Assembly (NCBI RefSeq): GCF_026870155.1
Contig: NZ_CP113975.1
Location: 3,596,001 to 3,660,000, forward strand
Source: Flavobacterium marginilacus
GTDB taxonomy: Bacteria > Bacteroidota > Bacteroidia > Flavobacteriales > Flavobacteriaceae
DNA length: 64,000 nucleotides
Direction: 5' to 3'
In this document: positions 8,763-21,359 of the stretch, in pieces
Position numbering within the stretch: position 1 is the first letter of the stretch
Layout of the letters: every line of letters begins with the position of its first letter
The notes under the pieces: model-generated
The model's input: the letters and a program-made list of their open reading frames with translations, nothing else
What the model was told of the DNA's origin: nothing
The model's database searches: none
Program-made: the position numbers and the translations under genes

Positions 8763-8800
8763 TTATTTTATTAAAAATGTATTAAGGGTTTTGGAAATTA

Positions 8801-8931
8801 TAATATCCCGCCTGCTCTAGTGGTTTGGGACGAAATTAGACCCTTTATTCGGATTTGCCAAATCTCCTAAATACAAAACCAACTTTCTATTAAGCAGATT
8901 TTACAAATCCGTTGTGGGAGCTGTTGGTGGC
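8801..8931 (-). repeat. attC-like site A (degenerate copy)
   Basis: A ~130-bp sequence that is clearly related to the one at 9726-9861: both share GGTTTGGG, TTCGGATTTGCCAAA, CAAATACAA, ATTAAGC and a GTTGG(T/C)GG end, in the same order and spacing. The end GTTGGTGGC (8923-8931) is the reverse complement, at 8 of 9 bases, of GCCACTAAC (9726-9734) at the far end of the enclosed gene unit. Read on the minus strand, the site follows the gene, as attC sites follow integron cassette genes. Its left edge is degenerate. Confidence 0.55.
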
Positions 8932-8947
8932 TGTAGCTCGTTTTTCG

Positions 8948-9691
8948 TTATCTCATCCATCCTTCTATTTTATAATTCTTTGAATATAGTTTTCGTTCTT
9001 TCGCACCATTGTCAGGCTTAAACCAAACTTCAAATCTTCCGGCATAAGGGTCGCCCCAGTCGCCTTCATAAATTGTAAAATGAGAACTTGTACCAAACTT
9101 CATTATTTTGTCTGTTGGATTATAAACATTAATTGAACTGCTTTCACGTAATCTTTCACTAGAAAGCTCTAGATTCTGGGTAATCTCAAATGCTTTTAAA
9201 TATATAATTCCGCTTTCAATTTTTCCAATCCAAAAGTCGTATTCATAAAGTCCTGGCTGAAATGAATTATATAATTGAAACTCTGTTTGTTTTACAATTC
9301 TATTTGTTAAGCTATCTGGTTTATTTTCATCAATACTAATATCAGCAGGATTATCAATTTTTATATTTGTTGGTATTTTTAGGTTGTGCGCCCATGTATC
9401 TGGCGTTTCTTGCTCTATCCAAAACATAGCAACTGTATAAACTATAACTGCAAATATTGTTACGCTAAACAATACAAAAGCTATAAAGCTTTTAAGCCAT
9501 TTTTTTTGAAATAACTGATATATTGCAGAAATCAATAGAACTAAAAGACTAAATCCAAATAAAGCAAAACAAATACTTCCAAATAAATGGTTTTTTAATA
9601 TTTCAGAGGAAACCAAAAGTCCAATGGAAATAATCCATAAAATTATTGGTTTCCAGCCGTTTTCAAAAAAATTAGTGCGATCTTTTTTCAT
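8948..9691 (-). CDS. Unknown membrane protein in a cassette-like unit
   Basis: A 247-aa protein, not recognised. After a charged N-terminus it has three likely membrane helices (WKPIILWIISIGLLVSSEI, a second around LFGSICFALFGFSLLVLL, and a third around FVLFSVTIFAVIVYTVAMFW), then a ~130-residue beta-rich soluble domain with NVYNPTDKIMKFG and GDWGDPYAGRFEVWFK. It is alone between two related ~130-bp repeats whose outer ends are complementary, so it may have arrived as a mobile gene cassette. No catalytic motif is visible. Confidence 0.65.
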   Translation of the reverse strand: MKKDRTNFFENGWKPIILWIISIGLLVSSEILKNHLFGSICFALFGFSLLVLLISAIYQLFQKKWLKSFIAFVLFSVTIFAVIVYTVAMFWIEQETPDTWAHNLKIPTNIKIDNPADISIDENKPDSLTNRIVKQTEFQLYNSFQPGLYEYDFWIGKIESGIIYLKAFEITQNLELSSERLRESSSINVYNPTDKIMKFGTSSHFTIYEGDWGDPYAGRFEVWFKPDNGAKERKLYSKNYKIEGWMR

Positions 9692-9725
9692 AGGTTTTTA
9701 GTCTTGTCAATTCTTCGATACCATT

Positions 9726-9861
9726 GCCACTAACGTTCCCTTGCTACAAGAGGTTTGGGGTTAAATTAAGCCTTATTTTCGGATTTGCCAAAACTTCCCA
9801 AATACAAGACCATTTTTAAATTAAGCCAAATGCCCAAATCGCTTGTAGCAAGTGTTGGCGG
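9726..9861 (-). repeat. attC-like site B
   Basis: A 125-135-bp palindromic site. Arms 9740-9759 and 9833-9852 pair at 18 of 20 bases, around a ~73-bp loop. Outside the arms lie GCCACTAAC (9726-9734) and GTTGGCGG (9854-9861), giving the AAC...GTT frame of integron attC core sites. It separates the 8948-9691 gene from the 10039-10353 gene. The remaining bases to 10038 are AT-rich, with no other feature seen. Confidence 0.6.
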
Positions 9862-10038
9862 TTCGGTTGTTTTTTAATCGAAATTACTATTACAAACCTA
9901 TATTTTTTACGTTTCTGTTTTTCAAATTGCCGTTAGCATACTCAAACTTTTATAATTTAGTTTTTCATATTCCAAGTTTCTAAAATTAAAATCTATTTAT
10001 TGTATTACAATTTTCTACAAGAGAAAAAGGTTTTTCAT

Positions 10039-10353
10039 TTATCCTTTTTTATGAATTGCATTTTTGATTGATTCAAGATAAACTAATAATTTAGTTTTGC
10101 TTATCGGATTTTGTGAAATAAATCCACTCAGCAAATTTTCCATCATAATAAGATTTATTCTACTATAATTTACAAAATTTTCATCTCGAGTCATTAATAT
10201 TTTATTCATCAAATTTTCATCATCAGTCAATGCGCTTTCACTTGTAGTATATAGTTTCTTAATTATATTTTCTATCTCTTCATCTTTGTATATTCTGTAA
10301 AAACGAGTTCTCTCGGAAGCTTCTATTTCGCCTTTTGTTAATTTCTGTTTCAT
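10039..10353 (-). CDS. Small unknown protein in a cassette-like unit
   Basis: A 104-aa protein, not recognised, highly charged and probably helical (KGEIEASERTRFYRIYKDEE; IENIIKKLYTTSESALTDDE). No signal peptide or cysteine motif. The start at 10353 is preferred because AAAGAAAATT precedes that ATG; an in-frame ATG at 10392 would add 13 mostly Lys/Arg residues. The gene stands alone between GTTGGCGGT (9854-9862) and its exact reverse complement ACCGCCAAC (10396-10404), which is the pattern expected of a single-gene integron cassette. Confidence 0.6.
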   Translation of the reverse strand: MKQKLTKGEIEASERTRFYRIYKDEEIENIIKKLYTTSESALTDDENLMNKILMTRDENFVNYSRINLIMMENLLSGFISQNPISKTKLLVYLESIKNAIHKKG

Positions 10354-10395
10354 AATTTTCTTTCGTTTTTTTCTTCGTAAGTTCGGTTTCAACTG

Positions 10396-10447
10396 ACCGC
10401 CAACTAATAGCTCTGTGCAATTTTTTCACAAATTTCAAGTTAGCTAA
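10396..10447 (-). other. Possible outer end of a third attC-like site
   Basis: ACCGCCAAC (10396-10404) is the exact reverse complement of GTTGGCGGT at 9854-9862 on the other side of the small gene. About 40 bases further is GTTAGC (within 10441-10447). The intervening sequence does not resemble sites A and B, so the third site is either short, damaged or of another type. Confidence 0.35.
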
Positions 10448-11242: not shown

Positions 11243-11779
11243 TTATATAGTCCAAATTTGATCTAAAAACACATAGCCATACCCGCAGATACTCATTACC
11301 TCATTTTTAGTTGTATTTTTCACTGCATCAGTAATAAAATTTTCGACGTCCTCTAATGACTTGTAAAATTTATTAGAGAACTGTCGTTTGTATTTTGCCC
11401 ACATTTTTTCAGCGGGATTAAGTTCTGGGCTATATGGTGGTAAAAAAACAAGAACAATGTTTTCAGGAATAATTAATTTTTTAGCTTTATGAAATCTTCC
11501 ATTATCCAAGACCATTATTTTAAGTTCTTTGGGATTTTCTTTTGAGAAGTTGTTTAGAAATACTTGAAAATTATCCGCATTGCAGTGTGGAAGTATTAAT
11601 TGAAAATGATCTCCTGTTATTGGAGAAAATGCTCCGGAAAGCCAAGTTGATCTGAATACTTGCTGAAAAGTACAAATTGGTTTCACACCAATAGCAGTAA
11701 CTGATTTGCCATTGCTAGTGAATAATCCATAACGGGATTCATCTTGAAAATATAGATTTACAGATTTAAAATCCCCCAC
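11243..11779 (-). CDS. IS630 transposase, DDE catalytic part (second frame)
   Basis: The C-terminal half of an IS630 transposase: NLYFQDESRYGLF holds the first Asp, KIMVLDNGRFHKA the second, and VFLPPYSPELNPAEKMWAKYK the typical IS630 box with the final Glu. As a free-standing frame it begins at a GTG (11779). Read without a break upstream, the frame continues to about 11822, overlapping the end of the first frame, so a -1 shift there would give a full-length protein of about 355 aa. The C-terminus is complete. Confidence 0.85.
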   Translation of the reverse strand: MGDFKSVNLYFQDESRYGLFTSNGKSVTAIGVKPICTFQQVFRSTWLSGAFSPITGDHFQLILPHCNADNFQVFLNNFSKENPKELKIMVLDNGRFHKAKKLIIPENIVLVFLPPYSPELNPAEKMWAKYKRQFSNKFYKSLEDVENFITDAVKNTTKNEVMSICGYGYVFLDQIWTI

Positions 11780-11790
11780 AGCATTCAGTG

Positions 11791-12306
11791 CTATTTCCTG
11801 GCAGATTCTTCCGAAGTCTTTTTAAAAGAGATTCCTTGGTTTTCATCTTTTTTAACGTGGCTTTTTCGGGCTATTTTTACGCTTGATTTAAAATTTCTAA
11901 TGCAGTAATAAAGTAAGGTATTATAATTGAAGGTTTTCCCCGTTTCTTTTTCAATCCAATCTTTCAATTCAACATAGCCTTGGAGCCCGTTTTGGGGATC
12001 GTTGAGTTTTGTTTCCAGCATATCGTGTTCAGCAGAATTGAAAACAGAGGGCTTGAAACCTTTTCTTTGATGTTTCATCAAACCCTCAATTCCTTCATTA
12101 ATATACAATGTTCTCCATTTATGAACGCTGTTTGGATCGACCATAGCTAATTTAGCAGCCTCACGTTTGGAAATTCCTGTTTTTTCGTTTTGTTTTAAAA
12201 TCAACAAAACTCTCAAACGCTGACCAATAAATGGAGTAGAATGTTTGAGCAAATTTTTAATTTCTTTTTCCGTTTCCTTGATAGTCAAAATTTTTGAATG
12301 TGCCAT
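11791..12306 (-). CDS. IS630 transposase, helix-turn-helix part (first frame)
   Basis: The 171-aa N-terminal half of the transposase. The HTH region reads TGISKREAAKLAMVDPNSVHKW, followed by a winged-helix-like segment and a linker to the catalytic part. The frame ends with TAG at 11791. A slippery run AAAAAG on the minus strand (11823-11818) lies where the two frames overlap; a -1 shift there joins this frame to the DDE part. Whether this is programmed frameshifting or a mutation cannot be told from one copy. Confidence 0.82.
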   Translation of the reverse strand: MAHSKILTIKETEKEIKNLLKHSTPFIGQRLRVLLILKQNEKTGISKREAAKLAMVDPNSVHKWRTLYINEGIEGLMKHQRKGFKPSVFNSAEHDMLETKLNDPQNGLQGYVELKDWIEKETGKTFNYNTLLYYCIRNFKSSVKIARKSHVKKDENQGISFKKTSEESARK

Positions 12307-21280: not shown

Positions 21281-21359
21281 TACATTTGCACCCTCATTAG
21301 ACCAACCTCTGGCGAAAACCGTGAATGTTGCTCTTTTTAAACCATAAAATAAAAATAAA
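21281..21359 (+). promoter_or_regulatory. rplS promoter and leader
   Basis: TACATTTG (21281-21288) is a perfect -7 box, followed by CACC. The leader to the rplS start is about 65 bases long and contains CCAACCTCTGGCG and a T-run. It could host autoregulation by L19, but no clear fold was identified. Confidence 0.55.

Follow-up and report, generated by a model that had tools for sequence, protein, structure and literature searches.

A stretch of 64,000 nucleotides from the genome of Flavobacterium marginilacus (NZ_CP113975.1, positions 3,596,001 to 3,660,000; hereafter the window) contains two genes on its minus strand which each lie alone between short complementary ends, with a site bearing two complementary arms between them. 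Is this arrangement the product of an integron, and if so which recombinase moves the genes? An initial annotation, made from the sequence letters, had read it as two integron cassettes with attC-like sites, resembling a cluster of attC sites lacking integron-integrase (CALIN). Sequence comparisons within and between genomes indicate that the units are very probably mobile cassettes belonging to an integron-like system with a recombinase that is devoid of I2, the insert specific to the integron integrase IntI. By structural tests the system appears to work like an integron, except in the test of the integrase for I2 and, less clearly, in that of the sites for bulged bases.

The elements described in the window were first considered (Table 1). 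The complementary ends of both units were present in the sequence, and so was the site framed by AAC and GTT between them, whose announced 20-bp arms correspond to L-stem arms of 20 nt each (9740-9759 and 9833-9852), complementary at 18 of 20 positions. Forty sites of this genome served to build a covariance model, R1. It matched the intact window site, which is one of these 40, at 9726-9862 with 156.8 bits, and gave 72.9 bits (E 9.6e-10) to the degenerate copy reported after the membrane-gene unit, which is outside the 40 and is thus a real relative; the two copies are 70% and 79% identical in two blocks. The absence of an integrase from the window agreed with a PF00589 search, which identified no tyrosine recombinase there and seven in the genome, so that the CALIN-like status of these two sites also stood.

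The distribution of the sites in the whole genome was then analyzed. BLAST with the window's site gave at least 40 near full-length copies, the window's included (E < 1e-37; 40 scored of 138 candidates), and identity of the repeats to it reaches 98%. With R1, at least 109 matches were obtained at E <= 0.01 among 150 scored candidates, the weakest of which may be chance; such counts of sites and of integrase relatives, taken from whole-genome searches in which part of the candidates per genome was scored, are lower bounds. A more sensitive search of 15 stretches (14 chosen by their BLAST hits, and the window) identified 88 sites, with AAC in 77 and GTT in 80 of them. They are distributed as follows: 30 form array A (C1:3738087-3768003), 24 form array B (C1:2305640-2324439), which is without integrase, and the others are present as small clusters or single sites. 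Each array keeps the same orientation throughout. A search of plasmid and phage collections with the window's site was negative at E <= 1e-5.

Scattered copies in such numbers, some of them abutting insertion-sequence-like ends, recall a family of insertion sequences or miniature inverted-repeat transposable elements flanking genes by chance, an alternative that the ends of the units allowed us to examine. In 77 consecutive units of less than 5 kb we compared the six variable bases beside AAC and GTT. All six were paired within the unit in 50 cases and across the site in three; the mean number of pairs was 4.81 within units, 2.66 across sites and 2.52 with shuffled partners, and none of 10,000 shuffles was as high as the value within units. 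Over nine bases, the match was better within the unit in 58 cases, equal in 10 and worse in nine. The initial claim, a better match of ends inside units than across sites, is true for these 77 units and also for arrays in 25 other genomes of Bacteroidota. Among the 74 units of 150-3000 bp, the longest open reading frame (ORF) was in sense orientation in 58 and antisense in three, while 13 contained none of at least 50 aa; a transposon-like repeat family does not account for a sense ORF in 58 of the 61 units having one. Nor does it account for long arrays of copies in one orientation rather than isolated ones, so the isolated-repeat alternative was not borne out. As sole cause it is disfavoured by ends that are complementary within units and not across copies, and by arrays that adjoin one integrase family in other genomes; we regard it as scarcely credible.

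As to the recombinase, array A starts beside a tyrosine recombinase gene of 345 aa (C1:3735795-3736832; L031:5795-6832), and the two-cassette outpost of the window lies about 130 kb from this gene. An IntI-like recombinase had been expected, and here the expectation failed, since the array-adjacent protein is not a canonical IntI. It scores 202.5 bits with TIGR02249, in two separate stretches, against a cut-off of 265, and 219.9 bits with NF040815 (recomb_XerA_Arch) against a cut-off of 220. We aligned the proteins of its family with IntI sequences, 76 of 80 named loci having yielded a protein of at least 250 aa. I2 (about 42 residues) is absent from 106/106 family sequences and present in 27/27 IntI: the segment at its place measures 30-35 aa in all the former and 72 aa in all the latter. 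K229, the catalytic lysine, is invariant in 29/29. Residues 1-68 of the protein form an extra N-terminal alpha/beta domain ahead of the SAM-like domain, and few structural matches among those listed span it.

A canonical IntI acting in trans on a classical integron or CALIN, with the neighbouring recombinase incidental, was considered at this point. Such a scheme suits the attC-like anatomy of the sites, the true IntI found above the TIGR02249 cut-off in 84/296 genomes of the phylum, and the five same-genus genomes that have sites without a hit for the I2-less integrase. However, at E <= 1e-50 TIGR02249 matches nothing in this genome, the 86 genomes that it does match are all from outside the window's family, and it is the I2-less gene that heads the arrays, on the same strand and with an attI-like point. 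We therefore consider action of IntI in trans very unlikely. In several genomes of the phylum (G153, G378, G436 and others) a true IntI and an I2-less family member are present together.

The same layout was looked for in other genomes. Relatives of the integrase (E <= 1e-60) were identified in at least 93/149 genomes of the window's family, this one included, and profile hits (E <= 1e-70) in at least 94/296 genomes of the phylum; 10 of 17 same-genus genomes have an integrase hit, and many of the nearest named relatives are from Flavobacterium. We read 100 loci (20, and 80 named ones), 48 of which have a contig end within 2.5 kb downstream. For the 80 named loci, such an end is present downstream in 43 and upstream in six, an excess expected if arrays break assemblies. 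Among the 52 loci with at least 2.5 kb downstream, 26 have an array on the same strand as the integrase, one genome being counted twice (L205 was taken as the same genome as L090, the integrases being identical). Because the AAC/GTT frame is symmetric under reversal and the chain detector was too strict, an alignment-based test was preferred. It chooses the best AAC and GTT columns per locus, so that three of nine bases are favoured, within and across alike; repeats are scored downstream and merely counted upstream. In 27 loci, ours included, the ends agree at 8/9 or better in 170/211 units within and in 22/211 across. Median core length is 117-121 nt in 26 of the 27 (L188, with 110, is the exception), a constancy that is partly selection since the array criteria required a core of 110-125 nt. 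Classed as unclear were the array-like L216 (core 151, 8/10 units within), L189 (core 165, 2/11) and L174. Core sequences differ among the three genomes whose alignments were inspected. In 12 IntI control loci, for which repeat positions were compared, repeats were more numerous upstream in seven and downstream in four, with none in one.

If the integrase acts on these arrays, an attachment point should be recognizable beside it. In this genome an attI-like point is present about 120 nt after the integrase gene, and 30 attC-like sites follow on the same strand. Of 26 distinct loci, this one included, 22 have a mate for the first R'' (at least 8/9) at 45-461 nt past the integrase; no such mate was found after the integrase in L083, L091, L161 and L186, and in two loci a further, weaker candidate is present. 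In 17 of the 22 loci a dyad is located within 50 nt upstream of the attI-like GTT, with a mean score of 6.9 compared to 1.3 for shuffled sequences. Array B begins with a near-copy of the attI-like sequence, and the clusters L039, L042, L043 and L044 begin with sequences that have its final part in common. This is not so for the L038 cluster or for the cassettes of the window, and for three single or insertion-bordered sites of this genome an attI mate was not found. The flank at the upstream junction of the window (10405-10413) does not match the attI-like consensus of the other clusters of the genome, which is why the window's cassettes were probably inserted at a secondary, non-attI point.

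To what extent do the sites resemble folded attC sites? Integron attC sites are described, in extracts of PMC2727003, as an R stem, an unpaired spacer, an L stem and a variable tip, and the sites of this genome resemble the layout of R stem, spacer and L stem. The outer stem was profiled in 58 units selected for at least four of six matching variable bases. Complementarity covers positions 0-9 (41/58 at position 9) and 11-14 (45-51/58) and does not extend past 14; position 10 (1/58) and the two bases immediately inside AAC/GTT (0/58) are unpaired. In the L arms, double changes were observed in 15 of 16 pairs, with none of 500 shuffles as high, and pairing falls from 90% to 36-46% when the partner is shifted by 1-3 columns. 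No bulge and no conserved bulged base was seen in the aligned L arms. Columns 25/117 of the L stem are A.C in 38/40 sites of this genome, compared to 73/720 A.C and 24/720 G.T cells in the whole L stem.

Cassette ends were joined to their own core, as in a circle, for the prediction of folding. The bottom strand was predicted to be more stable in 41/47 sites of this genome, and in 135/137 units from 25 other genomes (ends at least 8/9, cores of 90-160 nt, our locus and L205 left out). In the latter set, position 10 of the outer stem reads A.C on the sense strand in 122/137 units, G.T in none, a Watson-Crick pair in one and other combinations in 14. A sense-strand A.C becomes G.T in the bottom strand, and we read the position-10 and 25/117 pairs as putative strand marks. 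Double-stranded, Xer-like recombination at GTT by the I2-less integrase, the hairpin being no more than an inverted-repeat binding site, would leave three features without evident role: the variable and yet paired ends separated by 120 nt on the same strand, the covarying L arms, and the fixed A.C/G.T marks. We hold it to be unlikely.

We thus favour single-stranded cassette sites, for which the following sequence of events can be proposed. The bottom strand would fold into a hairpin, with an outer stem formed by R'' and R' of the same cassette, then the unpaired spacer, then the L stem. The I2-less integrase would bind this hairpin and recombine it, at GTT, either with attI or with a further site, so that cassettes could be excised as circles and then reinserted. 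The choice of strand would probably be set by the two fixed mismatches, A.C in the top strand and G.T in the bottom one, and not via the bulged bases, which in IntI are read by I2.

Variation of cassette content between strains was seen in one same-species genome pair. The strain comparison suggested initially shows that genome G344 carries different cassettes at the window locus: both flanks match at 97-98%, and between them are present a different site and two other genes, one of 112 aa and one of 274 aa that by eye looks Sir2-like. The right-hand (upstream) switch falls at the R' box of unit 1, at window 10403, and at the left-hand switch the G344 site is truncated. At the main array, the two genomes stay 98% identical through the integrase until the attI-like GTT ends, at L031:6954, beyond which similarity is lost. 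Over the 15 G344 stretches covered, 9/74 units of this genome were found; two units, 1.4 Mb apart here, share one 3.6-kb G344 contig, each 100% identical and not adjacent to the other. Turnover by homologous recombination between near-identical repeats would agree with the high identity of the copies and with a left-hand switch located inside a site core, but the two other switches fall at GTT (attI, and unit 1 of the window) and this process would not yield matching ends within units; it appears highly improbable.

Several observations weigh against cassettes moved by the I2-less integrase. Activity of the system, and action of the integrase on these sites, are what position, co-occurrence and anatomy lead us to infer. 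Half of the readable loci (26/52) have no clear array (17 with none or too few repeats, nine with an unclear frame), and the same test gave no array for a Chryseobacterium and an Arenibacter plasmid copy. Five of the seven same-genus genomes without an integrase hit still have R1 sites (12 in G317, five in G427, three in G172, two each in G364 and G387). In G127, of the same genus (L054 / L083), the integrase is without the first catalytic arginine, and yet an array is present. As for the sites themselves, 19/77 units of this genome match no better within than across, the top strand folds better in 6/47 sites, and G.T pairs are also found elsewhere in the L stem, columns 15/127 and 16/126 leaning to G.T. 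At the window locus, the R' box at the upstream switch is GTC in G344 where it is GTT here, and the left-hand switch, at window 8903, lies within the degenerate core rather than at its AAC. The G127 integrase has a serine in place of the arginine, starts late (310 aa) and has no attI mate; it is perhaps decayed.

The content of the cassettes was examined with Pfam and PADLOC, for 50 of 53 distinct cassette ORFs. Domains identified include DUF6985, SUKH, GmrSD, AAA_21, Gp49-like, trypsin-like and IS110, and PADLOC gave AbiLi-, HEC-06- and further defence-model matches. Three cassette proteins recur, with two, three and six gene copies respectively. Six copies of a unit of 334 bp, whose ORF is 68 aa long, are present in this genome, one in array A (L032:4532-4738) and five in array B, where they end at sites 2310991, 2313426, 2319468, 2321041 and 2321494. 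A 2.1-kb unit of array A holds a 458-aa IS110-type transposase (L032:785-2161). IS1111-type elements target attC sites. At five positions a palindrome, CCTGCTCATGCAGG, within a longer hairpin adjoins a site core at the place of R'' (L037:9866, L038:8963 and 14129, L044:9876 and 11666), and in L038 a 463-aa ORF, IS4-type transposase-like, ends about 600 bp ahead of one of them. Since the palindromes abut cores and this ORF is near one, an insertion sequence may target the attC-like sites.

In the window, the sole Pfam match of the unit 1 ORF is PF16417, below threshold (24.1 bits, cut-off 27), and the unit 2 ORF has no Pfam match at E <= 0.1. An Rfam scan at gathering thresholds gave a ribosomal protein leader as sole match in the window, and none at the attC-like site. 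This leader and two transposase-like regions are included in Table 1.

Table 1. Elements of the cassette locus and other features of the window (positions in the window)
Feature	Position	Strand	Remarks
Cassette unit 1, 551 bp	9854..10404	-	Carries the small gene; ends complementary 9/9: R' GTTGGCGGT at 10404-10396, R'' ACCGCCAAC at 9862-9854
Unit 1 ORF, 104 aa, function unknown	10039..10353	-	117 aa if an upstream TTG is used
Cassette unit 2, 812 bp	8923..9734	-	Carries the membrane-protein gene; ends complementary 8/9: R' GTTAGTGGC at 9734-9726, R'' GCCACCAAC at 8931-8923
Unit 2 ORF, 247 aa	8948..9691	-	Membrane-type (by eye)
attC-like site core, 119 nt	9735..9853	-	Between AAC (9856-9854) and GTT (9734-9732)
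Degenerate terminal attC-like site	8796..8931	-	Far side without intact R' box
Upstream junction flank	10405..10413	-	Sense GAGCTATTA, then GTT; common to G344
Transposase region	11243-12306		DDE_3 protein broken into two ORFs
ORF, 562 aa	15922-17610		Transposase-like by eye
L19-Flavobacteria ribosomal protein leader	21303-21330		RF03130, 43.5 bits

Compared to known systems, the closest parallel is offered by sedentary chromosomal integrons, with their tandem single-gene cassettes, folded sites bounded by AAC and GTT, bottom-strand bias, attI-like point beside the integrase, strain-variable content and duplicated cassettes. The differences are an integrase without I2, sites with fixed A.C pairs and no conserved bulged base seen, and an array located downstream of the integrase gene on the same strand. 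The two-site outpost of the window and the 24-site array B fit the description of CALIN, except that a matching integrase is present elsewhere in the genome and that array B opens with a near-copy of the attI-like sequence. With XerC, XerD and XerA the integrase shares its fold, the lack of an I2-sized insert (two Xer proteins of this genome were aligned) and the near-cut-off NF040815 score; unlike XerC and XerD, the I2-less family is linked to cassette arrays, and in trees it groups with IntI, away from them.

In a first quick tree, the I2-less family was the sister clade of IntI. When the partner recombinases of IS91 and other recombinases were added, the family was not one clade and the base of the tree was without resolution; our claim is limited for this reason to a joint grouping of IntI, the I2-less family and the IS91-partner recombinases, which fall in one 100/100 clade. 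These partners, relatives of 259-293 aa, directly precede IS91-family transposases on plasmids (L283-L286, L289), the hosts being alpha- and betaproteobacteria and Chryseobacterium.

The absence of I2 bears on how integrons are defined. In extracts of PMC7790495, the insert of IntI is what made single-stranded cassette recombination possible; it is said there to dock extrahelical bases and to prevent exchange of the second strand. A passage of PMC9668308 presents it as the hallmark of IntI, a defining trait required for this recombination. A subgroup of integron-like recombinases in which the insert is not fully conserved, yet essential for integron function, is mentioned in part of PMC8138268; insert-less relatives have thus been seen before, and in that part they are not tied to cassette arrays. 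As to the phylum, a passage of PMC8618304 places Bacteroidota among those with integrons, and for Bacteroidetes proper an extract of the IntegronFinder 2.0 paper (PMC9024848) names a single complete integron, that of Salinibacter ruber. We found no report of the present system in a literature search that covered few subscription papers and no preprints, so that its absence from the literature is unproven.

The I2-less family would either have found another way to recombine single-stranded sites or keep a state older than I2, between which the tree does not decide. With slightly more doubt than confidence, we propose that Bacteroidota harbour a separate and widespread class of integrons which use folded single-stranded sites without I2 and choose the strand by G.T versus A.C; this class may be placed close to the root of IntI and reflect cassette recombination before I2. 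Searches based on IntI would probably miss such integrons, since their integrase fails the defining test. With an integrase relative in at least 93/149 genomes of the family, though not all need head arrays, this suggests that integrons are perhaps under-counted. Their cassettes, with toxin-like, defence-like and unassigned genes, represent a possible large mobile gene pool. A large cassette system without I2 makes the origin of integrons testable: either I2 is needed for single-stranded recombination, or it is a later addition.
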